Shown in pieces: positions 1,577 to 40,582 of a stretch of DNA of 64,000 nucleotides. This stretch comes from Fischerella thermalis PCC 7521 (GTDB lineage: Bacteria; Cyanobacteriota; Cyanobacteriia; Cyanobacteriales; Nostocaceae). The stretch is from NCBI RefSeq assembly GCF_000317225.1, contig NZ_AJLL01000007.1:1-64000 (forward strand), written 5' to 3'. Made by a program: the position numbers and the translations under genes. The notes below the pieces were generated by a model that worked only from the letters and a program-made list of their open reading frames with translations, did not search any database and was not told the DNA's origin. The stretch's first letter is position 1, and every line of letters begins with the position of its first letter.

Positions 1577-3049
1577 ATGAGTACGTCTGAGTTTGACAAG
1601 TATAAAGTAGACCATCTGTTTTTGCTGATTGGTGAAAATCCTCTGCCTAACTATGTTGCAGCCCAAATACTGCTGAAAGAGGATGGTACTGTTTACTTGG
1701 TACACAGCACAGATACAACTAGTAAAGCTGCTTGTTTGGAAAGAAATTTAAAGGGTGTAAATGTCAAACTAATCTCATTGAAAACACATGAGGCTAACTC
1801 ATGTGTTATTAAAAACAAAATCCAAACCGAAGTAAAAAATATTTTAACAAAGCATCCAAAGCATACTTTTGGTTTGAATTATACAGGTGGAACAAAGGCA
1901 ATGTCCGTTCACGGTTATCGGGCTTTATTCGAGGCTTCAGGAGTTCAGAATCCTGTATTTAGTTATCTGGATGCTCGAAGTTTACAAATGTTCATCGATA
2001 GGGACAATGATTCTCCTAAAGCTGAAGCAGTAGATATAAAACTTTCCTTAGAAAAAATCTTTGATTTGCATGATTTACGCTGGGACAAAGAGCCGATTAC
2101 TGTTCCAATACTACCTGAATTAGCAATAGAATTTGCAAAACTACATACTGATAAAAAAGTAGTATTTGCATGGCGCTGGTGGTGTGATAATGTGCTAAAG
2201 CCTGCGACAAAGGTGTTTAAGAAAAAGCTTAATAAACCACCTGAATGGGAATGGAAGAAGGACAACCAGATAGATAAAGTTGCTCTCAAAGCTGATATTG
2301 CAGTTCAAAATTTAAATAAAGCTCTTTTAGATTATCTCAAACAACCAGAAGAGGGGAAATCGCTTTTAGAACTTTTTCAAGATGACAACTACAAAAGGCT
2401 GAAAGACCTGTGTGATTTTTATAATGGTTTATGGATTCCAGAATACTTACCACATATAGAGAAAGTTACTCAGCTTTTGAAAGAGAGAAAATACTTAGGT
2501 GAATCAGACCCGGAATTATCACTCAAGCAGTTTACTGAAAAGGCTCAGTTAGAAAAACCTGAACATTCTTGTCAGTGGTTAGAAAAACCTAGAAAGTCTT
2601 GCCAGTGGCTTGATGGTATTTGGCTAGAGCATTATGTATTGCATCAATTACAAGAATTGTCTAGGAAATTTCCTGGTCTGATAAATGATAGTGGAATGTC
2701 ATTTAATGTCAAGGATACTAAAAAAGAAAAATTTGAGTTTGATGTTGCTTTTGTAAAAAATTACCAACTATTTGCATTATCTTGTACTACTGATGCTAGC
2801 AAATCTTTATGTAAATCCAAACTATTTGAAGCTTATATAAGAGCGCAGCAATTAGGTGGAGAACAGGCGCGAGTAGCTTTAGTATGTTGCTACGACAACC
2901 CCGAAGAACTAGAAGCAGAACTTAAAGTTGATACTGAAGTAAAAAAAGAAGATCCAAAGATTATTGTTTTTGGATGTAAACATCTCGATGATATTCAAAA
3001 ATATATAAAAGATTGGATTGACGACAATAATCGCTATTACGCACCATGA
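1577..3049 (+). CDS. CARF-domain PD-(D/E)XK-type nuclease (Card1/Can2-like ancillary effector)
   Basis: First gene of the CRISPR operon, 490 aa from ATG 1577. An in-frame ATG at 1520, preceded by GGAAGGGGG, would add 19 residues; I prefer 1577 because CARF proteins usually begin just before the first strand (here VDHLFLLIGENPLPNY). The N-terminal domain (about 1-150) has the Rossmann-like CARF layout and the ligand-loop motif NYTGGTKAMS at residues 101-110. The last ~150 residues have a nuclease-like pattern: WLE, then FEFDV, then ALSCTT. The classical E-x-K is replaced by S-C-T, with lysines a few residues later. Known relatives bind cyclic oligoadenylate and cut DNA or RNA. It overlaps cas10 by ATGA. 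CARF assignment is firm; active-site integrity is uncertain. Confidence 0.8.
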   Translation: MSTSEFDKYKVDHLFLLIGENPLPNYVAAQILLKEDGTVYLVHSTDTTSKAACLERNLKGVNVKLISLKTHEANSCVIKNKIQTEVKNILTKHPKHTFGLNYTGGTKAMSVHGYRALFEASGVQNPVFSYLDARSLQMFIDRDNDSPKAEAVDIKLSLEKIFDLHDLRWDKEPITVPILPELAIEFAKLHTDKKVVFAWRWWCDNVLKPATKVFKKKLNKPPEWEWKKDNQIDKVALKADIAVQNLNKALLDYLKQPEEGKSLLELFQDDNYKRLKDLCDFYNGLWIPEYLPHIEKVTQLLKERKYLGESDPELSLKQFTEKAQLEKPEHSCQWLEKPRKSCQWLDGIWLEHYVLHQLQELSRKFPGLINDSGMSFNVKDTKKEKFEFDVAFVKNYQLFALSCTTDASKSLCKSKLFEAYIRAQQLGGEQARVALVCCYDNPEELEAELKVDTEVKKEDPKIIVFGCKHLDDIQKYIKDWIDDNNRYYAP

Positions 3050-4728
3050 GTAAATACATAGCAACTGTAATTGATACAACAGGAATACAACCATATATTT
3101 TTGGCAGTAATCGTTTACGAGAAAATATAGGTGCATCGTATTTAGTAGAACAAGCAACAAATAGTTGGGTTAAGTGCGCTTTACGCCAAATATTTGGAGA
3201 AAATGTGTATATTCCTGAACCAGAACAAGAAGAAAAATGTATTGAACACGATAATCTTGATGCTGAATTAGTCTATACCGGAGGTGGTAATGCAGTTATT
3301 CTTTTCAAAGACAGAGAAGATAAAGAAAGTGCTATTAAATTTACTAAAAGATTGAGCAAAAGAGTATTGCAAGAAGCACCAGGCTTAAAAATTGTAGTAG
3401 CTCACAGTGAACCCTTTGAGTGGGGAAACAAACTATCAGGAATGGTTGATAGTTTGATGAAAGAATTAGAGCGAAAAAAACGCGAATACAATCCTTCTGT
3501 CCCTTTGCTAGGTCTGGGAGTTACAGCTAACTGTCTTTCTACTGGATTATCTGCTGTAGATACTAGCGATCGCTACAGTGTACCCACTAGCTATCCAGTC
3601 TCCAGAGAAATCGTTGAAAAGCTCCGAGCCGTTGACCCTAAAAATAAAGCTCCAGCCAATCAAGAACTAAAAGATACTATATTTAAAAATTTGCCGCTAG
3701 GCAATTATATAGTCCCTTATGATGTTGATGATTTAGGTCGCACTGAGGGTAAAAGTAGTTACATGGCTATAGTTCACGCTGATGGTAACGGGATGGGCGA
3801 TCGCTTTAAAGAACATGGTAGGAAATGTAAAACAGACCGTGAGTATATTACTGCCATGCGTGAACTATCTAAAACTGTGAATCAGGCAGGTGTTAATGCT
3901 TTAAAAAAAGTTGCTGAGAGAGTTATCCAATTAGCAGATGGTAAATTACAGGAGCAGTTTGCAATTACAGAAAGAGATGGCGAAAAGTATCTGCCTTTTC
4001 GTCCAATAGTTTATGGCGGTGATGACGTTACATTTGTATGTGATGGACGATTAGGATTATCATTAGCAGCACTTTATCTGAAGGAATTTGCAGATCAAAA
4101 AGTAGCAGATGGAAAAGATTTAACAGCCTGTGCAGGAATAGCTATTGTCAAAACACATTATCCATTTGCCAGAGCATATCAATTAAGTGAAGCACTGTGC
4201 AGAAATGCTAAAAATTTTGTGCGTTCTGAAAAAGAACGACTTGGAATATCAGATTTTTCTGCACTTGATTGGCACATTGCTCCTAGCGGTTTGTTAGGTT
4301 CAATCAGCGATATCCGTCAACGAGAATATCAAGTTACTGAAGGAAATCTCACCATGCGACCTTTGTACTTGCAATCTGATAGTGATTGGCGCAACTGGGA
4401 TGATTTTTCTGAGGTAGTTAATAAATTTAATACACACCGAGACTGGACAAATCGCCGTAATAAAGTGATAGCTTTGCGAGAACAGTTACGGCAAGGTTCA
4501 GAGAAAACAAAGCAGTTTTTACAGGTTTACGGTTTGAATGAGAACTATTTACCCCAATTTAGCAAAGCAAAATATGACGACTTTTATCAATGTGGTTGGA
4601 CTGACGATCCCAGAACAAATACGAGAGTCTGTGGATATTTTGATGCCATTGAAGCAATGGAATTTCACATTCCTTTAAAGGAGAAAACCGATGGAGATTT
4701 ATTACCTGAAAATGCTACTTTTGAGTGA
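3046..4728 (+). CDS. cas10: Cas10, large subunit of a type III-D effector complex (palm cyclase, no HD domain)
   Basis: 560 aa, starting in an ATGA overlap with the CARF gene. The N-terminus (IQPYIFGSNRLRENIGASYLV) is typical Cas10/Cmr2 palm sequence. ADGNGMGDRF begins at A245 and YGGDDVTF places GGDD at residues 324-327, so the cyclic oligoadenylate synthase site is intact. No N-terminal HD motif is present and the protein is shorter than HD-bearing Cas10s, so single-stranded DNase activity is not expected. Within the complex it should sense target-RNA binding and signal to the CARF nuclease encoded upstream. The end overlaps the next gene by 38 bp. The C-terminal ~120 residues are probably the D4-like helical domain. 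Confidence 0.92.
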   Translation: MSKYIATVIDTTGIQPYIFGSNRLRENIGASYLVEQATNSWVKCALRQIFGENVYIPEPEQEEKCIEHDNLDAELVYTGGGNAVILFKDREDKESAIKFTKRLSKRVLQEAPGLKIVVAHSEPFEWGNKLSGMVDSLMKELERKKREYNPSVPLLGLGVTANCLSTGLSAVDTSDRYSVPTSYPVSREIVEKLRAVDPKNKAPANQELKDTIFKNLPLGNYIVPYDVDDLGRTEGKSSYMAIVHADGNGMGDRFKEHGRKCKTDREYITAMRELSKTVNQAGVNALKKVAERVIQLADGKLQEQFAITERDGEKYLPFRPIVYGGDDVTFVCDGRLGLSLAALYLKEFADQKVADGKDLTACAGIAIVKTHYPFARAYQLSEALCRNAKNFVRSEKERLGISDFSALDWHIAPSGLLGSISDIRQREYQVTEGNLTMRPLYLQSDSDWRNWDDFSEVVNKFNTHRDWTNRRNKVIALREQLRQGSEKTKQFLQVYGLNENYLPQFSKAKYDDFYQCGWTDDPRTNTRVCGYFDAIEAMEFHIPLKEKTDGDLLPENATFE

Positions 4729-25041: not shown

Positions 25042-25566
25042 GGAGGTTTAATGCAAGATTTTTACAAGGGGTGGGATACAGGTGTAGCAAACATAGGTTA
25101 GTCCGTGTATGACTCCTCCACAAATAGCAGTCCAACAATCCCGCTGTACCGGAACGAAGTCAAGCTATTGGTGAGATGCAAAGGTTATCTGTGTCCGGTG
25201 AGCACGACCGTTGGGCGGCTCTATGGTCGATCTCATAAATCATTGATTGTAGTTTTTGACGGAAATTGCATAAGTTATGGAGTTATGCGAGTATTACCCC
25301 ATGAACAAAATTGGTTGGCGTGTAATTGCTATCAACTAAGTTTGCACCAGATTTTAAATCGCACCGGGATTAGCACAAAGAGTAGAGACACGATGAGAGA
25401 GAAAAAGCATCTAACAGACAAGCTGATTGATTGGGCTTTAGTCTTGGGTTGGAGCTGCACCTTGAGTACCTCATCCAAAGCCAAGAATCCCTACGATCGC
25501 CCCTTGGTGTGTCCGCTAGGACGATCCCTAGCACCCTACAGAGAACTTGATTTATCAGCATTTGGT
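25042..25566. other. Gap before the response regulator
   Basis: About 520 bp. A plus-strand frame stays open from 25105 into the response regulator, but its sequence resembles no receiver extension or known domain, so I treat it as leader or non-coding. Confidence 0.5.
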
Positions 25567-26256
25567 ATGAGGATTTTACTCATCGAGGATGATGTGGCCA
25601 TTGCCAAGGCCGTTGCCGAGGCCCTGGGTGACAAAGGCTATACTGTTGAAATGGCTTACGACGGTCAGACTGGTCTGGCCTTTGCGGAGACTGGTTTATT
25701 TGACTTGATTGTCTTGGATCTGACCTTACCCAAACTCAATGGCATCGCCCTTTGCCAAAAACTGCGGCAACAAAACTTGTCTGTGCCTGTGTTGATGCTG
25801 ACCGCACGAGACACCACCGCAGATAAGATCGTTGGTCTGGATGCAGGTGCCGATGACTATATCATCAAGCCCTTCGAGATATCTGAGTTACTAGCCAGGG
25901 TTCGCGCCTTGTTGCGTCGGCGTTCACTCCCCTTTGCAGAGACACTGACTTGGGAAAAGCTCCTGCTCAGGGTAGACTCCTGCGAAACCTTTTATGATGG
26001 TATTATTCTGCGCTTAACCCCTAAAGAATATGCTTTACTTGAGCTTTTTTTGAAGAATGGCAGCCGCATCTTGACGCGCCAATACATTCTAGAACGAGTC
26101 TGGACGTTTGATGACCTGCCTGGGGAAGACACGGTCAAAGCGCACTTGCGCAGTCTGCGTCAGAAGCTGAAGTTAGCAGGAGCACCCCCCAACTTAATTG
26201 AAACAGTGTATGGCTTGGGCTACCGACTTAACCCGAATCTCCAATCTGCGGTTTAA
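25567..26256 (+). CDS. OmpR/PhoB-family response regulator
   Basis: 229 aa from ATG 25567, where the receiver domain begins (MRILLIEDD). The phospho-acceptor is Asp51 (VLDLTLPKLNG), with Thr79 and Lys101 (IIKPFE) completing the active site. The winged-helix output domain (LRLTPKEYALLELFLKN, then HLRSLRQKLK and ETVYGLGYRL) is complete. It overlaps the kinase gene by 47 bp, so the two are co-translated. The pair is visibly GC-richer than the flanks, suggesting transfer. Confidence 0.92.
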   Translation: MRILLIEDDVAIAKAVAEALGDKGYTVEMAYDGQTGLAFAETGLFDLIVLDLTLPKLNGIALCQKLRQQNLSVPVLMLTARDTTADKIVGLDAGADDYIIKPFEISELLARVRALLRRRSLPFAETLTWEKLLLRVDSCETFYDGIILRLTPKEYALLELFLKNGSRILTRQYILERVWTFDDLPGEDTVKAHLRSLRQKLKLAGAPPNLIETVYGLGYRLNPNLQSAV

Positions 26257-27610
26257 CCGCCTGCGTAACCGCTTGCTGCTGTTTTACTTTTTGGCCATTA
26301 CAGCAATTTTAGTTTTTTTCGCAACGACGATTTACGTCCTTGTATCGCGCGATCGCCAACAGCAATTTGACCAACAATTGCAGCAGATCGGTACTTCCGC
26401 GGCGGGAATCTGGGAGGTGGTGCACCACGAATATGAAGAACTGACGACTCAACCTGAGTACGCCGCTTACCAACGCACCTTGCCCCGCGATCGCCAGGGA
26501 CAGCTTTTACCGATCGCCCTTGTGCAACTGATGGGTAAATACCAAACGGACACTGCACCGCCGCTGGTTCCGGGAACACTCCTCGACCCAACCTACGGAA
26601 TTGCTTGGTATACGCCCACGCGAGAGCTGTTGATCTACGAGGGAATATTGTTTAACTTGCCCCTGCCAGACCAGATTCCGGTTGAAGGCTTGTTCGTATC
26701 CAGAGATAAAACCCGCAGTTTCTTGCAGCCAATTTACAAAGCCTCACCGCAGTCGGGGCAGGAGTTGCTAGGGTATGTTGCGGTCACAGGGACGCTAGCA
26801 GAGTTGGAGACAGAGCTAGACCATTTGCGCACAAACTTATTCTTGGGCGTTGTGCTGGTAGCGGGTTTTGTGGTGGTAGCAGGATGGTGGCTCACGCGCC
26901 AGTCGATCGCCCCGGTGGCCGCCAGCTTAGCTCAACTCAAGCAATTCACTGCCGATGCCTCCCACGAATTGCGCACCCCCCTCACAGCAATTCAGGCGTC
27001 GGCGGAGGTTTTGCAGAGTCATCCCGAACGCATTCACCCTAGCGACATCGAGAAAGTAAGTGCGATCGCCACTGCGGCCACCCGCATGGGCCATCTGGTC
27101 AAAGACTTACTGCTCATAGCTCGCCTGGATGCCCAAGCCCCTGATCAGCGGGGATGGCACGTCATCGACTTGGATGAACTGCTGGAAGACTTAGTGGAAC
27201 TGCACCGCGATCGCGCCCAAGCCGCCCAGCTCGCGCTGACCTACCAACCCCAAGCCACAGTCAAGGTTTATGGCGATGCCGAGCAACTCCAGCGCTTATT
27301 TGCCAACTTGTTGAGCAACGCCCTACAGTACACCCCAGCGGGTGGCATCGTTACCGTCACCTTGCAGCAAACCGGGAAAACGGCTGTTGTCAGGGTGCAA
27401 GATACCGGCATCGGCATTGCGCCCGCAGACCTGCCCCACGTTTTTGAGCGGTTCTGGCGGACTGAAGAAGCGCGTCACTATTATCGGGATGGGTCTGGGC
27501 TGGGGCTGGCGATCGCCAAAACCATTGTTGAGCGCCATCATGGCCACATCAGCGTCCAAAGCCAACCCCACCAAGGTACCTGCTTTGAGGTCAAGCTCCC
27601 CTGCCGGTAG
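26210..27610 (+). CDS. Sensor histidine kinase, partner of the adjacent regulator
   Basis: 466 aa from ATG 26210 inside the regulator gene. TM1 (about 23-45) and TM2 (about 208-228) enclose a ~160-residue extracytoplasmic sensor. Kinase boxes are intact: H box FTADASHELRTPLTAIQ (His252), N box LFANLLSNALQYTP, G1 VQDTGIGIAP, F box VFERFWR and G2 GSGLGLAIAK. The HAMP region is very short. RppB/NrsS-like metal sensors have similar layouts, but no metal motif is evident and the signal is unknown. Confidence 0.92.
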   Translation: MAWATDLTRISNLRFNRLRNRLLLFYFLAITAILVFFATTIYVLVSRDRQQQFDQQLQQIGTSAAGIWEVVHHEYEELTTQPEYAAYQRTLPRDRQGQLLPIALVQLMGKYQTDTAPPLVPGTLLDPTYGIAWYTPTRELLIYEGILFNLPLPDQIPVEGLFVSRDKTRSFLQPIYKASPQSGQELLGYVAVTGTLAELETELDHLRTNLFLGVVLVAGFVVVAGWWLTRQSIAPVAASLAQLKQFTADASHELRTPLTAIQASAEVLQSHPERIHPSDIEKVSAIATAATRMGHLVKDLLLIARLDAQAPDQRGWHVIDLDELLEDLVELHRDRAQAAQLALTYQPQATVKVYGDAEQLQRLFANLLSNALQYTPAGGIVTVTLQQTGKTAVVRVQDTGIGIAPADLPHVFERFWRTEEARHYYRDGSGLGLAIAKTIVERHHGHISVQSQPHQGTCFEVKLPCR

Positions 27611-27703
27611 GCTTTTCTAGGTCAATCTTTTAGCAGGTAACCTATGGCCGTCAATTACCGAGTTCTTTACTTTTACAGGCTAACTTAACAGTGAGAAAGT
27701 CTG
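27610..27703 (+). repeat. About 95-bp direct repeat, copy A (before the cyclase)
   Basis: Shares roughly 80% identity with 29122-29217. The best-conserved core is ATGGCCGTCAATTACCGAGT followed by TTCTT-ACTTTTACAG and CTAACTT-ACAGT. Each copy lies just upstream of a gene, so it may be a duplicated promoter or operator. Confidence 0.75.
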
Positions 27704-27725: not shown

Positions 27726-28967
27726 GTGATTAAGTCATTGAAGAACATATCTTGCAGAATTGTCGAAGAAAAGATCGAGGGGTCGTTCTCAACCCGTTTT
27801 TGGATGGAATTGTTCGGCAACTCAGCTCACTTTGCAATCGCCAATATCCTACTCGAATTACTCATCAAAGAGCCTGCCGAGTATATTCGCACACCTGATC
27901 CCTACGTCATTGTATTCGCTGCCATAATACAGGCATACTGGCTGACGCGCCAAGCGGCGACTCGCCCCCATCGATTTATCGGCAATCTAATCGCACCTGC
28001 ACTCTACAATCTTACAGAAATCTTACTAGAAGGCATTCGTTTTTTCTCTGTTCCGCACCATGTGGCTTATTGGGGTTTTGCTCTGACCATTGGTCTCTTG
28101 CAAGAGTTGCGCTTTCACCTGCCACCACTCTATGCATTCCTTGTCGTTATCGAAAGCGTCATCCGCGCCTCTATTCTCCTTTTCATGTACGCTATTTTTG
28201 AGAGATATGCCAATCCTGAACAAACCCTTTCTTGGAATGCGTTTTTTAGCGACACAAGCCACGTGTTTATTGGCTGGGCAATTTTACTGATTGGTTTCAG
28301 CAACGGTCTGGCAAATCTGACTGCCGAACGCTATCTGCAAAATTTACGCCAAATGTCGGCGCAACTTCGTACTTATTCAGAGTGGCTGCTCGGGCGAAAT
28401 TTACTCTCTCAAATTATTCTTAGTCCCAATTCTCTGCACATTACTCGCCGTGAGCGTACGATTTTGTTTATGGACATTCGGGGCTTTACCGCATGGAGCG
28501 AGTCGCATCAACCCGAAGAAGTCGTGGCGCTTCTCGATGAGTACTATCATCAGTCTGAGGCGATTATTACATTTTATTGTCCTATTAAGTTAAAGTTCTC
28601 AGCCGACGAAGTGATGGCAGTTTTTCCCACTGCCCAAGCTGCGGTCCATGCAGCGGTGGAATTACGTCGTCAGATACACCCTCTACTTGCCGAAAATCAA
28701 CTTGGAGCAGGCATTGGCTTGGAGAGTGGGTCAGTTGTGGAAGGATTGCTGGGTAGTACAAACATAAGGTTCTATGATGCTATCGGTGACACCGTTAATA
28801 CTGCTAAACGTATTGAAAACGCTGCCCAAGCAGGTCAAGTGCTTATCTCTGAACGTGTTTGCGAGCAAGTAGCAACCGTTAAGCTTGGCGCAAAAACAAA
28901 GATTCGGGTCAAAGGAAAGGCACAACCCATCACAGTTTATGACCTGGAAGATGTCAAAGCGGGCTAA
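27726..28967 (+). CDS. Class III adenylate/guanylate cyclase with N-terminal membrane domain
   Basis: 413 aa from GTG 27726; the start is uncertain. Residues about 30-200 contain five to six hydrophobic helices, a membrane sensor module. The cyclase domain (about 240-405) has the metal-binding Asp250 in LFMDIRGFT and Asp294 in KFSADEVMAVF. The substrate and transition-state region GLESGSVVEGLLGS, then FYDAIGDTVNTAKRIE, follows. The active site therefore looks complete. It probably makes cAMP at the membrane. It is framed by two copies of a 95-bp repeat, with the two-component system just upstream. Confidence 0.88.
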   Translation: MIKSLKNISCRIVEEKIEGSFSTRFWMELFGNSAHFAIANILLELLIKEPAEYIRTPDPYVIVFAAIIQAYWLTRQAATRPHRFIGNLIAPALYNLTEILLEGIRFFSVPHHVAYWGFALTIGLLQELRFHLPPLYAFLVVIESVIRASILLFMYAIFERYANPEQTLSWNAFFSDTSHVFIGWAILLIGFSNGLANLTAERYLQNLRQMSAQLRTYSEWLLGRNLLSQIILSPNSLHITRRERTILFMDIRGFTAWSESHQPEEVVALLDEYYHQSEAIITFYCPIKLKFSADEVMAVFPTAQAAVHAAVELRRQIHPLLAENQLGAGIGLESGSVVEGLLGSTNIRFYDAIGDTVNTAKRIENAAQAGQVLISERVCEQVATVKLGAKTKIRVKGKAQPITVYDLEDVKAG

Positions 28968-29010: not shown

Positions 29011-29111
29011 TCCCCCTCACCCTAAATCCCTTTCCCCCTGTGGGAGAGGGACTTGCAAGATAGCTCTTAGCCCCCCTCTCCCTTTTTGGGAGAGAGGCTG
29101 GGGGTGAGGGC
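29011..29111. repeat. About 100-bp palindromic MITE-like element
   Basis: Outer arms CCCCCTCACCC and GGGTGAGGG enclose two hairpins of the CCCTCTCCC/GGGAGAGGG type. A shorter relative is at 31026-31065. Such elements are common between cyanobacterial genes. Confidence 0.7.
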
Positions 29112-29121
29112 CTTTGCTGAT

Positions 29122-29217
29122 GGCTTTTCTAGATAGGCCTTTCTCGTAGGCAACCTAATGGCCGTCAATTACCGAGTTCTTCACTTTTACAGACTAACTT
29201 GACAGTCAGAGAGTTTG
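29122..29217 (+). repeat. About 95-bp direct repeat, copy B (before the lipoprotein)
   Basis: Second copy of the element at 27610-27703, 30 bp upstream of the lipoprotein start. Confidence 0.75.
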
Positions 29218-29246: not shown

Positions 29247-29645
29247 ATGAAAAAATCCCAAGCAGTTGCTTTATTTCTGAGTTTAAGTTTGGCAACAGGT
29301 GTGACGGCCTGCACCAACCAACCCCAAAAAACAGGTGGTGAAGAAGGAGGCAATTCAGCCCCTACCTCACCCCAACCCAAAAAAACCGGTGGTGGTGAAG
29401 AAGGGGCTAGTTTAGCCCCGACCTCACCATCCGCCGCAAATTGGCATCAGCCAGCCCCTGGTCAGTCCCTTGATGCAACCCTCTATCTCGCTGGTCGGGG
29501 TGAACGCGGTGAACGCAGTGGACGGGGTGAACGCGGTGAACGCGGTGGACGGGGTGAACGCGGTGAACGCGGTGAACGGGGTGAACGCGGTGAACGCGGT
29601 GAAGGCGGTGAGCGGAGTGCCCTGCCCTCAAGTCAAATAGTGTAA
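29247..29645 (+). CDS. Small lipoprotein with Gly-Glu-Arg repeat tail
   Basis: 132 aa from ATG 29247, preceded by CAGAGG. A lipoprotein signal with lipobox GVTAC is followed by a Gly/Pro/Thr-rich linker and, from about residue 88, around twelve Gly-Glu-Arg-type triplets (GERGERSGRGERGERGG and on). The tail is encoded by tandem 9-bp units based on GGTGAACGC. Glycine recurs every third residue, collagen-like but without proline, and the tail is densely charged. Unknown function; lies 22 bp before the dioxygenase gene and probably in the same transcript. Confidence 0.7.
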   Translation: MKKSQAVALFLSLSLATGVTACTNQPQKTGGEEGGNSAPTSPQPKKTGGGEEGASLAPTSPSAANWHQPAPGQSLDATLYLAGRGERGERSGRGERGERGGRGERGERGERGERGERGEGGERSALPSSQIV

Positions 29646-29667
29646 ACAGAAGTCGCTTAGGAGTACC

Positions 29668-30342
29668 ATGATCCTTTGCATTGACGGTGTTCTCGATTCA
29701 GCTGAGCTGACCGAACTGCACCAACTCTTGCAGCAAGGTCAGTTTTTAGACGGCAAGCTCACTGCGGGTACCTATGCCAAGGTCGTCAAAGAGAACGAGC
29801 AGTGGCAGAGCGAGGCAGCAGCTAAGCAACAAGCCCAAACCCTCGTTCTCACGGCACTCCAGCGCCACCCTCTGTTTCAGTCCGTCGCGCAGCCCCGCTC
29901 TATTTGCCCGATCCTGTTTAGTCGCTATCAGTCGGGTATGAGTTACGGGGTACATATGGACAATGCCCTCATGGGAGAGGGAGCCACCCTCATGCGGACA
30001 GATATTTCACTGACGCTCTTTTTGAGCGACCCCGCCACCTATACCGGCGGCGAACTGGCGATCGATACTAGCTTGGGGGAACAAACTTTCAAGCTAGCCG
30101 CTGGTTCAATGGTGATGTATCCGTCTACATTTCTCCATCACGTCACGCCGGTCACGGAGGGAGTGCGCCTAGCAGCAGTCACCTGGGTTCAGAGCCTGAT
30201 TCGGAACCCGAGCGAGCGGGAAATGTTGTTTGAGTTGGATACCGTTCGCCAAGCTTTATTTGAGAAATACGGCAAGACCGTTGAGTTCGACCTGCTGTGC
30301 AAACTGCATGGCAATTTATTGCGCAAGTGGGTTGAGTTTTGA
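29668..30342 (+). CDS. PiuC/YbiX-type Fe(II)- and 2-oxoglutarate-dependent dioxygenase
   Basis: 224 aa, the full family length. The Fe(II) triad is visible: His96 and Asp98 in YGVHMDNA, and His157 in PSTFLHHVTPV. The 2-oxoglutarate-binding Arg follows in GVRLAAVTWVQS. TYTGGELAID and the C-terminal RNPSEREMLFELDTVR are typical. PiuC-like genes elsewhere accompany siderophore receptors and are iron-regulated; the substrate is unknown. Here it sits between the GER lipoprotein and a PepSY-like membrane protein, consistent with an iron or redox role by association only. Confidence 0.9.
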   Translation: MILCIDGVLDSAELTELHQLLQQGQFLDGKLTAGTYAKVVKENEQWQSEAAAKQQAQTLVLTALQRHPLFQSVAQPRSICPILFSRYQSGMSYGVHMDNALMGEGATLMRTDISLTLFLSDPATYTGGELAIDTSLGEQTFKLAAGSMVMYPSTFLHHVTPVTEGVRLAAVTWVQSLIRNPSEREMLFELDTVRQALFEKYGKTVEFDLLCKLHGNLLRKWVEF

Positions 30343-30387
30343 GGAGTAGATAAACGGGTACAACCATTGCTGACTTTCAGGTAGCCT

Positions 30388-30957
30388 ATGAACATCAAAA
30401 GCATTAAGTTTGTCAAGCTGCATCGCCAATTAGCCCTACCCTTATTTGTGCCACTGTTGTTAACCGGCATCAGTGGCATTGCCTATCGGCTCGGTCGCAG
30501 TTGGTTGGGTTTGCCCAAGTCGTTTGGTCAGGCCATGATGACCATCCATGAAGGTCGTTTTCTCGGTGAGCCTTTGGTTCCTTTTTATGTTGCGCTGGTG
30601 GGTTTAGGCTTGTTGGCCCTGATTGGGAGCGGGGCAGTGCTTTGGTCTCGTTTCCGGCGGCGATCGCCCGCCAAGCTGGCACCAGAGCGGAACATCCATC
30701 GCTTCCTAGCACCGATCGCCCTCCTGCCTTTGATGGTGAGCGCCGGTACCGGCATTGCCTATCGCCTGAGCATCAATTGGCTCGGCGTTTCTGAGGAGCA
30801 GGTCGAGTTTTTGATGACCCTGCATCAGGGTTCCTACCTTGGCTCTACCTTGAGACCGTTCTATGTCCTCTTGGTAGGCGCTGGACTCCTTATCATGCTG
30901 TGGACCGGCGTGCAAATGTTAGGCCTCGCCCGTCGCACAAGGAGAGAGTCCAACTAG
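30388..30957 (+). CDS. PepSY-associated transmembrane protein with internal duplication
   Basis: 189 aa, four membrane helices in two similar halves. Half 1 has KLHRQLALPLFVPLLLTGIS, GIAYRLGRSWLGL, IHEGRFLGEPLVPFYVALVG. Half 2 has NIHRFLAPIALLPLMVSAGT, GIAYRLSINWLGV, LHQGSYLGSTLRPFYVLLVG. The H-R at the start of each helix pair is typical of PepSY-TM domains seen near iron-uptake genes. It follows the dioxygenase by 45 bp. Confidence 0.75.
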   Translation: MNIKSIKFVKLHRQLALPLFVPLLLTGISGIAYRLGRSWLGLPKSFGQAMMTIHEGRFLGEPLVPFYVALVGLGLLALIGSGAVLWSRFRRRSPAKLAPERNIHRFLAPIALLPLMVSAGTGIAYRLSINWLGVSEEQVEFLMTLHQGSYLGSTLRPFYVLLVGAGLLIMLWTGVQMLGLARRTRRESN

Positions 30958-31025
30958 GGCAGCTTAAAGGTTCTCTCTCAATCGGGAGAAGCGGGAGCAG
31001 ACTATGGCTCAGAAAGCAGTTCGGC

Positions 31026-31065
31026 TCCCCTCTCCCCACTTGGGAGAGGGGCTGGGGGTGAGGGC
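31026..31065. repeat. Short palindrome related to the 29.0-kb element
   Basis: CCCCTCTCCCC/GGGAGAGGGG hairpin followed by GCTGGGGGTGAGGG, matching one end of the 29011-29111 element. Confidence 0.6.
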
Positions 31066-31071
31066 ATTCAA

Positions 31072-31395
31072 TGGCACTATCTCTACATTCCCCAAGGCGT
31101 GTTTGAGCGCATGGCCGGTGATACCATTGCCGAACTCGCCCGTGCCTGTGCCCCAGCCCTGCAAAACTTGCTCCAATCCGAGGAATTCCAAGATTTACCC
31201 CTGTTTGTCAATCGGTTGAGAGCCTGATTGATCCCGCCATCCTCAACGCCTTGCCTTCCCGCTATCGCCGCGCCGCCGATCAAGCCGTGATGCTCTACCG
31301 CTTCTTTGAAAACAAAGAGGGCATGAATTATGCCCCGGTTTTTACTGCCTTGCTGGGTTCGATCGATGAAGTAGCGAAAGGCTTCCTGGTACTGT
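31072..31395 (+). pseudogene. CO2 hydration protein (ChpX/ChpY-type) C-terminal fragment
   Basis: Reading frames give HYLYIPQGVFERMAGDTIAE, LARACAPALQNLLQSEEFQD and LPLFVNRL. After a frameshift near 31210 come LIDPAILNALPSRYRRAADQ, AVMLYRFFENKEGMNYAPVF and TALLG. I recognise this as the tail of the CO2 hydration subunits that partner NDH-1 complexes. The start and most of the gene are absent. Confidence 0.5.
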
Positions 31396-31594
31396 AGAGG
31401 AACAAAAAGCTTGGTTTGCCCCATATTTAGGCGGAGTCGATTCTCTTGCAAAGACGCGGCGCGAACGCAAATCCGAAGACTATTATCGAAAACTTGCCCA
31501 AAATCTGAAACGGACGCTGGTGACCGCAATTTGAGCAGTCTTGAGAAGTACCGTTTGGATTCACCGCGATCGCAAGCAATCCCTTTGATATTCA

Positions 31595-32172
31595 GCTTTT
31601 CATGAGCAACGTGCTTCCCTTGAGATAAAAGCTTTTTGGCTGTTTTGTAATGAAAGTCTTTACGCTGATTGGCGACTTTCAGATGTGCTTTAGCGATTCG
31701 CTTAATTGCCTCCTTGCGACGATTTGACCCTTTCTTCTTGCGAGAAAGTAACCGCTGTAACCGCTTTAGATGCTTTTCTGCTTTCCGGTAGTGCTGAGGA
31801 ATTGCAATCTCTTCACCCGAATCATCTACCAGAAACGCCTTCAGACCCATATCAATCCCGATGGTGTTTTCCAGTCCTTGGCAAGTCAGGAGTGAGGACG
31901 GGGACAGAAACATCTTCAAGACTGAATGTCACATACCAGCCGTCAACTTTACGGGTGACGGTGGCAGTCTTGATCTTGAAGCCATCCGGTAACGGACGGT
32001 GCAGAATCAGTTTCACCATGCCGATTTTGGGCAGATTGATGAACTTGCCTTGAATGCAACAAGGCTGCATTTGAGGGAATGTGAACGAGCGATATCGCCC
32101 TAATCCCTTGAATCTTGGCTTCCCTGATTTCTTGCCAGTGCAATCCCCCTTCAACCATCGGTCAAACGTCAA
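31595..32172 (-). pseudogene. TnpB (IS200/IS605 OrfB) remnant
   Basis: Two minus-strand frames join near 31880. The first carries GKKSGKPRFKGLGRYRSFTF and PKIGMVKLILHRPLPDGFKI; the second carries IGIDMGLKAFLVDDSGEEIA and AHLKVANQRKDFHYKTAKKL. The GIDMG motif holds the first RuvC aspartate. The protein loses its N-terminus at 32172, at the edge of the right att repeat. It loses similarity after LNIKGIA near 31595, so the zinc finger and last RuvC residue are gone. Inactive. Confidence 0.8.
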
Positions 32173-36402: not shown

Positions 36403-38985
36403 ATGACAACCTCTCAGGAGAGGATTATCCCCACGGATCTGCGAAACGAAATGTCCAGGTCTTACCTGGAATATGCCATGAGCGTCATCGTTGGGCGGGC
36501 GCTGCCAGATGCCAGGGATGGTCTGAAACCTGTCCATCGGCGTATCCTTTACGCCATGCATGAGTTGGGGTTGACCTCAGACCGTCCTTTCCGTAAATGT
36601 GCGCGTGTTGTGGGGGAAGTTTTGGGTAAATATCACCCCCACGGCGACACAGCAGTGTATGATGCCTTAGTGCGGATGGCGCAGGATTTCTCGATGCGAT
36701 CGCCTTTAATTGAAGGGCATGGTAATTTTGGTTCTGTAGATAACGATCCACCAGCGGCGATGCGTTACACCGAATGCCGCTTACAAGCCTTAACTACCGA
36801 TGCTCTGCTTCAAGACATTGAATCGGAAACCGTAGATTTTGTCAATAACTTCGACGGTTCTCAGCAAGAACCAACCGTCTTACCAGCGCGGATACCGCAG
36901 TTGTTATTAAATGGTTCCTCCGGAATTGCCGTGGGGATGGCAACTAATATCCCACCCCATAACTTGGGTGAATTGATTGATGGGTTAGTAGCACTAATTC
37001 ATAACCCGGATATAACTAATACTCAACTTATGCAGTATATCCATGGACCCGACTTTCCGACTGGTGGTCACGTTCTTGGTACTGCGGCGATCAAAGAAGC
37101 CTACACCACTGGACGCGGTTCGATAACTATGCGTGGTGTAGCAAACATTGAAACCATCGAACAACGAGGACGCCCGGAAAGGGAAGCGATTATTATCACC
37201 GAGTTGCCCTATCAAACCAACAAAGCAGCGTTAATTGAGAAAATCGCCGAGTTGGTAAATGAAAAACGCATCGAGGGAATTGCTGATATCCGGGATGAAA
37301 GCGATCGCGACGGAATGCGAATTGTCATCGAACTCAAGCGCGATGCCTATCCCCGTGTCGTTCTGAACAATCTCTACAAGCAAACGCCCCTGCAAGCTAA
37401 CTTTGGGGCAAATATGCTGGCGTTGGTGAACGGAGAACCCCAAATCCTCACCCTTAAGCAGTTTTTGCAAGTATTTCTGGATTTTCGTGTAGAAGCGATC
37501 ACCAGACGCACCCAGTATGAACTGCGCAAAGCAGAAGAACGCGACCATATTTTGCAAGGGTTATTAATTGCCTTATCCCATCTAGATGCAATTATTGCTT
37601 TAATTCGTCACGCCGCGGATACACCGACAGCAAAAGGAGAATTAATCACAACTCACGGCTTGTCAGAAGCACAAGCAGATGCAATTTTACAAATGCAACT
37701 GCGGCGGTTAACAGCCTTAGAAGCAGATAAAATCCGCCAAGAACATGAAGAATTGCAAGCCCAAATCGCCGACTTGCAAGATATTTTGGCAAAGCGGGAA
37801 CGGATACTGCACATTATTGAAACCGAAATACAGTATCTCAAAAACAAATTTGCTACACCACGACGCACGGTCATTACCCATGGTGAAGGGGATTTAGAAG
37901 ATATAGACCTAATTGCCAACGAAAAAGCTGTAATTTTAATCACCGAACAAGGCTATATCAAACGGATGCCCGTCAACACCTTTGAAGCCCAAAGCCGCGC
38001 CACCAGAGGCAAAGCTGCTGCCAAAGTCAAAGACGATGATGGCGTCGAACATTTCTTGACTTGCTGTGACCACGATAGCCTATTATTCTTTAGCGATCGC
38101 GGTGTAGTCTACTGCCTCAAAGCCTACCAAATTCCTGTAGGTTCCCGTACCAGTCGCGGCACACCGATTGTACAGATGCTGCCCATTCCCAAAGAAGAAA
38201 AAATTACTTCCATCGTACCTGTCAGTGAATTTACCAGCGATGAATATTTGGTCATGCTCACCAAAGGCGGCAACATCAAGAAAACCGTATTGGAAGCCTT
38301 TAGTCATATTCGTGCCAACGGCTTAATTGCTATTTCCCTAGAAGAAGGCGATCAACTGCGCTGGGTACGACGGGCAAAAGTTGAAGACAGCGTCATCATC
38401 GGTTCTCGTCAAGGTATGGCCATTCACTTCCGCTGCGATCACGAACAACTGCGTCCCCTTGGTCGTGCTACCCGTGGTGTCAAAGCCATGAAACTCAAGA
38501 ACGGTGATGAATTAGTTGGCATGGATATTCTACCCGCCGCGATTCTAGATAATTTAACCCCAGTGTCTGAAGCAGAAATCGCAGAGATCGAAACCGAAGA
38601 CATCGAAACAGAAGAATCCGCAGAAGTACCAGGCAACGGTCATCACGGCCCTTGGGTATTAGTAATTACAACTGGAGGCTACGGTAAACGCGTACCCGTT
38701 GCTCAGTTCCGCTTGCAAAACCGGGCTGGTCAAGGTTTAATGGCAACCAAATTCAAGAGTCGCAAAATCAAAGACCAACTAGCCAACCTACACATTGTCA
38801 ACAACGACGATGAAATTATGATGGTCACCAGTCGCGGTATCATCATCAGACAGGCAGTGAATGCAATTTCCGTCCAGTCTCGCTCTGCTACAGGCGTCCG
38901 TGTACAACGCCTAGACGAAGATGATGTCATTACAGGAGTGGCGATCGTTCCTCCCGACACTGGTGATGCGACAGAAGCAGAGTAA
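36403..38985 (+). CDS. gyrA: DNA gyrase subunit A (type IIA topoisomerase A subunit)
   Basis: 860 aa. Catalytic Tyr122 lies in MRYTECRL, the same number as in E. coli. Upstream are [20 protein letters not shown] and [20 protein letters not shown]. The C-terminal beta-pinwheel starts near residue 525. Its GyrA box at residues 530-536 reads QSRATRG rather than the canonical QRRGGKG. An acidic insert (about residues 725-740) interrupts the pinwheel. The complex with GyrB introduces negative supercoils. The 280-bp upstream gap includes CAGGACTTACGCAC, a dispersed motif in these genomes. The lnt gene overlaps the end by 20 bp. Confidence 0.93.
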
Positions 38986-40582
38986 AGAACACAGCGAACT
39001 CTTTGTGAGTTGTGCGATCGCCTTAGGGAGTGGTATATTGATGGGGCTTACCGTCGCCCCAGTCAATGCCTGGTTTTTGGCATGGGTAGCCTTAGCACCT
39101 CTATGGTATTTAGTAGTTAATCCTACACTCCGCCCAAAGCCATTTCCCCTTCTTCTTGCCTTGATCTGGGGTATTGGTTATCACGGTATAGCCCTATCCT
39201 GGATTACAGGTATTCATCCCATGACGTGGATGGGGGTTCCTTGGTTAACAAGCCTGGCAATAGCTCTTTTCTGCTGGGTATTCATCACCCTTTGGGGGGC
39301 TGCATCCGTAGCGTTGTGGGCGACAGGGATGAGGATCATTTGTCCTTCTATCCAAAAACCCTACGCTCGTGTTCTTATAGGCACAGCCCTGTGGTGTGGT
39401 ATCGAGACTGTATTGAGTTGGGGAGCCTTATTTTGGAGTTCTCTTTCCTACACACAAAGTCCGTATAATCTCGTAATCCTCCATCTTGGGCAACTTTCAG
39501 GGCCTTATGCCGTAACAGCTGCGATTGTCGCCGTCAATGGGCTAATTGCAGAAGCTTTTATCAACCGCCAAGACGCCAAGGACGCCAAGATTTTCTCTGC
39601 GTTCTTGGCGCCTTGGCGGTTCGTTAATAAATATCTAATTACCGCCACAGGTTTATTACTTATCCTACACCTAATCGGTTTTAGCTTATACACCCGTCCC
39701 CTAATTCAACCACCAGCGGCAGCCCTGAAGATAGGAATAATTCAAGGTAACATTCCTAACCAAATCAAACTTTATCCAGAAGGCTTACGTCGCGCCTTAG
39801 CAGGCTACACCAGTGGGTATCTAACTTTAGTAAATCAAGGAGTTGATGCAGTACTAACACCGGAAGGGGCCTTACCTTTCTTCCAGCGTCACATTATCGG
39901 TAGTTCCTTGGTGGCGGCGGTGCGTTCTAAGGGAGTTGTAGCCTGGATTGGTGGTTTTGGCGAGAAGGGAAAAAGTTATACAAATAGTTTGTTGACTATC
40001 ACTGGTGACGGTGAGGTTTTTAGTCGTTACGACAAGGTAAAGTTAGTACCGATTGGTGAGTACGTCCCCTTTGAAGAAATTTTAGGTGGTATTATTAGTC
40101 GCTTGTCACCTTTGGATGAACATCAAGTTCCTGGTTCACCAAATCAAATTTTTAACACGCCTTTTGGTCGTGCGATCGCAGGCATTTGTTACGAGTCTGC
40201 TTTCCCGGAGGTATTTCGCTATCAAGCCCAAGCAGGGGGACAGTTTATCCTCAGCTCATCTAATGATGCTCATTACAGTGCATCTATGCCAGCACAGCAT
40301 CATGCTCAGGATATCATGCGGGCAATTGAAACTGATAAATGGGCAGTACGGGCAACAAATACAGGATATTCAGCTTTTGTAGATCCCCACGGTAGAACAG
40401 TATGGATATCGGGACATAATATCTACGAGGTTCACGCTGAAAAAATTTATCGCCGCCAAACGCAGACTTTATATGTGCGTTGGGGTGATTGGTTGACGCC
40501 TTTTTTACTAGTATCGGCAACAGGAGTATGGCTGATCAATTTCTTGACTGTCCAACTCTCACGCAAGCGGGGGCTGAACTAG
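38966..40582 (+). CDS. lnt: Apolipoprotein N-acyltransferase
   Basis: 538 aa from ATG 38966, overlapping gyrA by 20 bp. About six N-terminal membrane helices are followed by a periplasmic nitrilase-fold domain. The Glu-Lys-Cys triad is visible: Glu300 (LTPEGALP), Lys357 (RYDKVKLVP) and Cys408 (GICYESAFP). It adds the third acyl chain to lipoproteins in the inner membrane. Around residues 200-220 the reading frame carries a palindromic repeat element ([20 protein letters not shown]) between membrane helices, not part of the family core. The 3' end overlaps the convergent VirB9-like gene by 47 bp. Confidence 0.93.
39564..39620. repeat. Palindromic repeat inserted in frame within lnt
   Basis: ACCGCCAAGACGCCAAG, then GACGCCAAGA, faces TCTTGGCGCCTTGGCGGT across a 12-nt loop. 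The length keeps the lnt frame open. CGCCAAGGACGCCAAG-type palindromes are a dispersed cyanobacterial repeat class. Confidence 0.75.

Follow-up and report, generated by a model that had tools for sequence, protein, structure and literature searches.

piuC adjoins the gene of a Gly-Glu-tract protein in most cyanobacterial loci: a candidate enzyme-substrate pair for iron handling

Introduction

The PiuC family of Fe(II)/2-oxoglutarate (2OG) dioxygenases matters for iron uptake. Its Caulobacter member CciO is a cytoplasmic dioxygenase strictly required for iron uptake by its receptor; its substrate is given as unknown in the accessible part of that report, where a surface-tethered siderophore is floated as one option (PMC12004947). 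PiuC has been proposed to act on the imported siderophore (PMC12004943), and a link has been drawn between siderophore-type drug resistance and altered piuC or ybiX (PMC12004943, PMC11878004), again according to partially available texts. As far as the available portions of the two 2025 Caulobacter papers go, no substrate has been established for PiuC, YbiX or CciO (PMC12004947, PMC12004943).

Here we analyse a piuC locus of the cyanobacterium Fischerella thermalis PCC 7521, contained in a stretch of 64,000 nucleotides that we call the window (contig NZ_AJLL01000007.1, positions 1 to 64,000). Its dioxygenase is homologous to those of the proteobacterial systems PiuA-PiuC, Fiu-YbiX and CciT-CciO (~40% identity, same fold). 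The likeness extends to iron acquisition, which is an inference for F. thermalis, and to PepSY genes, which are sometimes adjacent in the proteobacterial systems as well (loci L174 and L179). Unlike these systems, which have a TonB receptor, the window has a protein with a Gly-Glu (GE) tract and no receptor-sized ORF beside piuC.

The fold and the Fe/2OG residues of the window PiuC are also those of collagen and other peptidyl 2OG hydroxylases such as PHD2, algal P4H and bacterial P4H. These hydroxylases act on short repeated or flexible peptides, as the titles of their PDB entries also indicate. The window pair differs from them in that the GE tract is almost devoid of Pro, with Glu as the recurrent residue, and in the PKHD_C domain of the enzyme. 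In bufferins and metal-related RiPPs, MNIO oxygenases are associated with a Cys-rich core and with copper. These systems resemble the PiuC pair in combining a small exported protein with a cytoplasmic iron-dependent oxygenase and in their role in metal handling, but their oxygenase belongs to another family, and the PiuC pair has a Gly-Glu tract and, by inference, iron. The siderophore reductases PiuB and FoxB are PepSY_TM proteins with the PF03929 domain and conserved His pairs. The PepSY_TM protein of the window has both features, but is a minimal, duplicated form of 189 amino acids whose gene is linked to that of a GE-tract protein.

Gene organization of the window

The genes of the locus lie on the forward strand between positions 25555 and 30957, in the order OmpR-type response regulator (25555-26256), sensor histidine kinase (26198-27610), cyclase-domain protein, GE-tract lipoprotein in its GER form (29247-29645), PiuC/YbiX-type (PKHD) dioxygenase (29668-30342) and PepSY_TM membrane protein (30388-30957). 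Regulator and kinase were assigned by Pfam. The last three genes had been grouped into a module spanning 29247-30957 in a preliminary description of this DNA; their coordinates are correct and their identities confirmed, with gaps of 22 bp between lipoprotein and dioxygenase and 45 bp between dioxygenase and PepSY_TM protein.

The lipoprotein of 132 amino acids begins with a signal-like sequence, MKKSQAVALFLSLSLATGVTAC, followed by a lipobox-like VTAC (judged by eye), and shares a GGEEGG-type motif and the tract with piuC neighbours in relatives. Its tract of GER, GEG and GGR triplets (29499-29615) contains 10 GER triplets, and the whole protein has 13 GE dipeptides. None of 20,000 shuffles of its residues reached 10 GER, the maximum being 3. 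At the DNA level, the 9-bp repeat reported before is present: TRF finds a 9-bp unit in 12.6 copies (87% matches) and a 27-bp unit in 4.1 copies (96%). A single scan of the GE lipoprotein against NCBIfam returned no family. When another GE lipoprotein was used as query, the F. thermalis genome gave the window gene as its best match (E 2.2e-5), followed by two matches at 0.34 and 0.50.

The dioxygenase had been described as a complete Fe(II)/2OG enzyme of PiuC type, and this description holds. The protein has 224 amino acids, matches NCBIfam NF003974 with 295 bits (cut-off 143) and scores above the cut-off for both Pfam domains 2OG-FeII_Oxy_3 and PKHD_C. The iron triad H96, D98 and H157 and the 2OG-binding R167 are present and invariant in an alignment of 12 sequences, window included. 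The active site is intact, while catalytic activity and substrate are inferred. An AF2 model (mean pLDDT 86.9) aligns with PiuC of P. aeruginosa (9ghl) at Z 29.2 and rmsd 1.9 over 223 residues. Below the PiuC and Shewanella PKHD entries, the fold matches include peptide hydroxylases with Z 16-18, among them, according to their PDB titles, PHD2 with HIF, an algal P4H with peptide and a P4H with EF-Tu. No TonB receptor gene is located beside the window piuC, and ORFs of more than 470 amino acids are absent from the region of 25 to 35 kb; the first long ORF after it (36403-38985) encodes DNA gyrase A.

The PepSY_TM protein matches PF03929 with 41.2 bits (gathering cut-off 28.8) in two stretches, which bears out the proposed PepSY duplication. 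A His pair is repeated in both halves (H12/H54 and H104/H146) and shows at least 90% conservation across 21 sequences, the window protein among them. These four residues are likely haem ligands; haem binding and membrane position are inferred.

In a search of 60 genomes (F. thermalis and 59 relatives), 16 gave a PiuC match at E 0.001. F. thermalis itself gave a strong match (E <1e-60), as did 10 further genomes, which all belong to the same order but lie outside its family; the 35 genus and family relatives gave none. In the PiuC tree (132 proteins), the window protein groups (support 97/90) with those of loci L141 and L147 from two 2.6-Mb genomes, which have the same regulator, kinase, GE lipoprotein, PiuC and PepSY_TM genes.

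GE-tract proteins beside piuC in cyanobacteria

Apart from the window, we read 11 strong loci, in 8 of which a protein with Gly-Glu-X (GEX) units adjoins piuC (ORFs of at least 70 amino acids). Two larger sets of loci were then compiled. For the first, obtained by a scan of genome contigs, we used the best 80 of 199 confirmed cyanobacterial piuC loci; 60 of these 80 have an ORF with three or more consecutive GEX units, (GEX)3+, no more than 3 kb from piuC. Collapsed GE matches were concentrated near the gene, with 64 in the 294,708 bp within 2 kb of piuC versus 8 in the 904,569 bp beyond. The second set comes from a phylum-wide search, which detected PiuC in 64 of 292 genomes and from which 40 loci were taken. 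Synechococcus elongatus, one of the control genomes, likewise has PiuC. Of its loci L131 to L157 (n=27), 21 have three GE within 12 amino acids, or 19 of 24 after removal of three duplicates of the first set.

Pooling and de-duplicating both sets together with the window gave 118 distinct PiuC loci. A GE-tract ORF is found within 1.5 kb of piuC in 97 of them, at a median distance of 154 bp and within 400 bp in 93 of the 97. The partner gene is mostly upstream, on the same strand in 46 loci and on the opposite strand in 37; it is downstream on the same strand in 13 and on the opposite strand in one. We scored a tract under a loose rule, which accepted three GE in 12 amino acids, a C-terminal GEGGE tail or GEGENCW. 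When each flank had to comprise 800 bp or more, 90 of 106 loci have a GE ORF, compared with 4 of 221 control ORFs, i.e., other long ORFs more than 4 kb off piuC in the same loci. Because the loose rule was set after many loci had been seen, we recounted with the strict (GEX)3+ rule, itself picked after the first loci were read, and obtained 72/106 versus 1/221. The corresponding Fisher p-values (5e-58 and 1e-44) ignore relatedness, so a count by clusters is fairer: at 70% identity the 106 PiuC proteins form 49 clusters, in 42 of which some member has a GE partner (the representative itself in 40), or in 31 by the strict rule. A GE-tract protein is thus encoded beside piuC in most cyanobacterial loci.

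The exceptions fall into several kinds. Nine of the 106 both-flank loci have no GE tract by any of the rules applied (L035, L053, L064, L092, L093, L094, L100, L152 and L161), and seven have one just outside the rule (L061, L065, L067, L083, L095, L138 and L142, weak in L142). Five more failing loci miss one flank (L027, L049, L063, L069 and L087). In L010, a large Gly-Gly-Thr-rich protein is encoded beside piuC (genome G055, 2210-3666) in place of a GE protein.

Searches in the opposite direction, from lipoprotein to genome, gave an association that is not exclusive. One GER lipoprotein as query in 8 whole genomes yielded 9 matches (E <=0.01) in 6 genomes, all beside piuC. The other GE lipoprotein gave a less clear result in 11 genomes: it had 33 matches with E up to 1, 10 of them no further than 2.2 kb from piuC, and of the 7 that reach E 1e-4, 5 are located at most 2.1 kb away. 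In view of the two exceptions (L103 and L111) and the weaker matches, GE proteins also occur away from piuC, and the tract is not exclusive to these loci. The GE-tract lipoprotein of L103 (1492-1671) is encoded next to single-repeat PepSY_TM-like, Rieske-like and rubrerythrin-like proteins (named by eye), and piuC of that genome is on a different contig.

The three-gene module of the preliminary description therefore has to be modified. What usually accompanies the dioxygenase is the GE-tract protein, while PepSY_TM is optional, being encoded near piuC in 23 of 121 loci, window included. A GE-tract ORF is present in 22 of these 23; the exception is L027, where the upstream contig comprises only 238 bp. 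The preliminary description had also suggested looking for the same trio elsewhere, and it does co-occur: trio, regulator and kinase are found within 4 kb in 15 other loci. Counting the window, 16 of 121 loci have regulator and kinase homologues (at least 240 bits) together with PepSY_TM no more than 4 kb away from piuC, and all 16 have a GE-tract ORF.

This distribution bears on a reading in which the GE tract is an unmodified acidic tail that binds or buffers iron, PiuC acts on a small molecule such as a siderophore or another ligand, and the two are neighbours only through a common iron-starvation pathway. Acidic tails could indeed bind Fe(III) without modification, some GE proteins are located away from piuC, and the published models for PiuC and CciO, as far as those texts are available, prefer a siderophore-like substrate (PMC12004947, PMC12004943). 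The other iron-related neighbours, however, vary from locus to locus (FutA in 18, PepSY_TM in 23, M75 imelysin in 10 and multicopper oxidase in 6 of 121), whereas the GE tract is usual and sits on different carriers. Since this one sequence feature tracks PiuC, a common pathway alone is insufficient as an explanation, and we regard this alternative as unlikely, though the strongest of those considered here.

Carriers and composition of the GE tract

We found the tract on unrelated proteins: small lipoproteins, M75 imelysins, histidine-phosphatase-like proteins, an RTX-repeat protein and an unnamed helical family, termed HIGHP here. On the PiuC tree, the carrier labels, assigned by homologues within 4 kb of piuC, require 4 (M75), 6 (histidine-phosphatase-like), 5 (RTX) and 3 (HIGHP) changes. 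The pairing thus recurs with unrelated carriers. In 69 of the nearest partners of the 97 loci, at most 8 amino acids separate the last GE from the C-terminus; a lipobox-like site is present in 54. The arrangement is that of a RiPP-type pair in that a small precursor gene adjoins, and is co-inherited with, that of a putative modifying enzyme, post-translational modification being hypothetical; some GE partners are large, which is atypical of RiPP precursors.

HIGHP proteins look exported and helical, with GHL and HIGHP-like motifs and a GE tract, and none of the five members scanned has a Pfam match. They were found in L077 (2591-3418), L095, L097, L148-L150, L158, L185 (3071-3997) and L191 (5752-6639). 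In 6 of the 7 cyanobacterial HIGHP loci, a multicopper oxidase homologue is encoded within 4 kb of piuC. A model of the L077 protein has pLDDT values under 50 for residues 1-63 and a confident helical bundle after residue 63; its fold matches are of the usual helical-bundle kind, with EfeO listed only at Z 6.6.

The 526 GEX units of the piuC-linked tracts have 16 residue types at position X, including 263 Gly, 112 Ser and a single Pro, and their Gly and Glu codons vary synonymously. The units were counted inside GE runs, and their number is therefore no measure of constraint on Glu. The GER repeat first noticed in the window is real as a tract, but GER represents the local variant of a more general GE-X tract, with Gly or Ser at most X positions.

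GER is also a Gly-X-Y triplet, which raises the possibility of a bacterial collagen-like protein with a collagen-type (PKHD) hydroxylase. The PKHD name, the P4H-like fold of the enzyme and a weak match to Pfam Collagen (PF01391, 20.3 bits) would fit such a system. This score is below the Pfam cut-off of 27.2 bits, and the composition is also against it: the window tract has no Pro, and units with 263 Gly but one Pro among 526 third positions are ill-suited to a collagen helix. We rejected a collagen-like protein as a candidate, and consider such a system very improbable.

The free variability of X would suit a docking, sorting or oligomerising element, e.g., a protease target or a partner positioning PiuC at the membrane, that is neither substrate nor iron ligand. 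The very low confidence of the tract in the sole modelled carrier (L077), as for disordered segments, is compatible with such a role. Many carriers, however, look exported, by the lipobox-like sites given above or, on visual inspection, by other signal sequences; such proteins would not stay in the cytoplasm, where CciO resides according to the accessible part of the Caulobacter study (PMC12004947). A mere docking function therefore appears improbable.

Marine picocyanobacteria

One picocyanobacterial family (f36) contributes 29 genomes with a PiuC match among the 292 searched. In the ten loci read (L160 and L162-L170), PiuC is distant, with 36-48% identity to the best of 12 queries. All ten have a gene for a FutA/IdiA-like binding protein beside piuC, and likewise one for a small exported-looking protein with the invariant C-terminus C(I/V)PIGEGENCW. 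A profile of this protein matched 27 of 292 genomes, exactly the 27 with this type of PiuC, and in all 27 its gene lies downstream of piuC, 70-109 bp from where the piuC alignment ends. The remaining two genomes of the family, G215 (L159) and G221 (L158), have the GE-tract type instead. A porin-like gene (by eye) is also found near piuC and futA in L160 and L162-L170.

In Synechococcus, iron limitation raises idiA in the two strains investigated, and in the coastal one piuC, idiA and Fe porins respond to warming, according to the accessible part of that study (PMC12274634). piuC is also cited as tied to picocyanobacterial iron stress in a partially available source (PMC13184970). As one form of the pair occurs in these organisms beside FutA/IdiA-like genes, it could bear on the acquisition of scarce iron by these abundant phototrophs. 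We searched for a Fur-box-like 15-base core upstream of ten picocyanobacterial piuC genes and three window genes and found no excess over shuffles, so neither regulation by Fur nor control by the neighbouring kinase and response regulator is shown. For the cyanophage "PiuC" proteins (~29% identity), the neighbourhoods in two of 193 phage records were viewed, by annotation only, and contain no annotated GE partner.

Proteobacteria

Our proteobacterial sample comprises 17 PiuC loci in 16 records, all plasmid-borne. Eight have an annotated TonB receptor adjoining, seven lack gene annotation, and two have a GE partner, so that the pairing is present in two Proteobacteria. The partner in Pantoea agglomerans is a 94-aa protein of GGEHE/GGEYE repeats; that of Roseovarius indicus is HIGHP-like (by eye), has GEGEGE tracts and ends 3 bp before piuC. 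A test for Gly/Glu-rich ORFs flagged 19 others in 11 proteobacterial loci; these we discounted on visual inspection as high-GC frames that lack a GE run. The other proteobacterial PiuC proteins, including receptor-linked copies, form one clade (12 rows, 100/91). Pantoea and Roseovarius PiuC fall outside it, at positions that are unsure because of long branches. With a GE partner in only 2 of 17 loci and a TonB receptor in 8, either the substrate in Proteobacteria is to be found elsewhere or the function differs. Indioceanicola has a similar HIGHP-like protein with a GGE tract, and no PiuC match within the 12 kb read.

A proposed role for the pair

The frequent adjacency of piuC to the gene of a GE-repeat protein in cyanobacteria makes the repeat the leading candidate target of PiuC. 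We propose that PiuC and the GE-tract protein belong together as enzyme and exported, ribosomally made partner, the latter most probably as substrate, in the service of iron handling, a reading to which we assign a probability of about 0.55; the modification itself is untested. In its favour are the pairing itself, its different gene arrangements and unrelated carriers, its presence in picocyanobacteria and two Proteobacteria, the peptide hydroxylases among the nearest other folds, and the iron-related neighbours. There are no biochemical data for an enzyme-substrate relation, and the nine cyanobacterial loci without a nearby GE tract, the GE proteins away from piuC, the scarcity of GE partners in Proteobacteria, the published siderophore proposal and the lack of a Fur-box-like signal count against it. 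The iron role of the pair is inferred from neighbours and relatives. Iron function in F. thermalis, export, the substrate relation, the modified residue and its chemistry, and Fe binding are likewise inferences.

According to this proposal, PiuC would use Fe(II), 2-oxoglutarate and O2 in the cytoplasm to oxidise residues of the Gly-Glu tract. Glu would be the recurrent reactive side chain, which upon hydroxylation could become an oxygen-rich metal ligand. The GE protein would next leave the cytoplasm and be fixed to the membrane as a lipoprotein; alternatively, a different exported protein such as imelysin would carry the tract. Once in the periplasm or at the cell surface, it may bind or buffer Fe(III) and hand the iron to the reductive or uptake machinery that its neighbours encode in various genomes, i.e., the PepSY_TM haem protein, FutA/IdiA, a multicopper oxidase or imelysin. 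We rate hydroxyglutamate as an iron ligand lower than the reading of the tract as a substrate in iron handling.

A peptide-modifying oxygenase with an exported partner is a known kind of system; whether the pair also represents a new kind of metal ligand is a bolder reading that remains open. In its widest form, the missing substrate of PiuC would be a genetically encoded Gly-Glu tract, whose oxidised Glu residues form a tethered Fe(III) ligand, a "ribosomal siderophore", in cyanobacteria including marine picocyanobacteria and in some Proteobacteria, and a TonB receptor would have replaced the partner elsewhere. We put this forward tentatively and consider it rather unlikely as a whole. We know of no protein modification on Gly-Glu repeats from any other system, and if one exists here, it would to our knowledge be unprecedented. 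Among the open-access full-text matches listed, of which titles and beginnings of abstracts were considered, none reports GE-tract proteins together with PiuC; this search leaves out most of the subscription literature. The frequent exported-looking GE partner makes the substrate question of PiuC, YbiX and CciO directly assayable by mass spectrometry and with the enzyme.

Possible insertions and repeats around the module

The cyclase-domain gene between kinase and lipoprotein (27726-28967, Pfam Guanylate_cyc) is bracketed by a 60-nt repeat (27644-27703 and 29158-29217, 90% identical). In L141 and L147 the lipoprotein gene follows directly after the kinase gene, without a cyclase gene, and the window copy therefore has the appearance of having entered the operon later by insertion.

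Downstream of the module, at a distance of about 8 kb, an apolipoprotein N-acyltransferase-like gene (38921-40582; LNT_N, CN_hydrolase) belongs to lipoprotein maturation; its proximity is probably a coincidence. A piece of an IS605 OrfB (TnpB-type) transposase lies at 31083-31919 on the reverse strand (PF01385, 75.6 bits). It is adjoined by a reverse-strand ORF (31852-32172) without Pfam match that by eye resembles its other end. The module itself is flanked on either side by related, MITE-like inverted repeats at 29014-29110 and 31024-31068.
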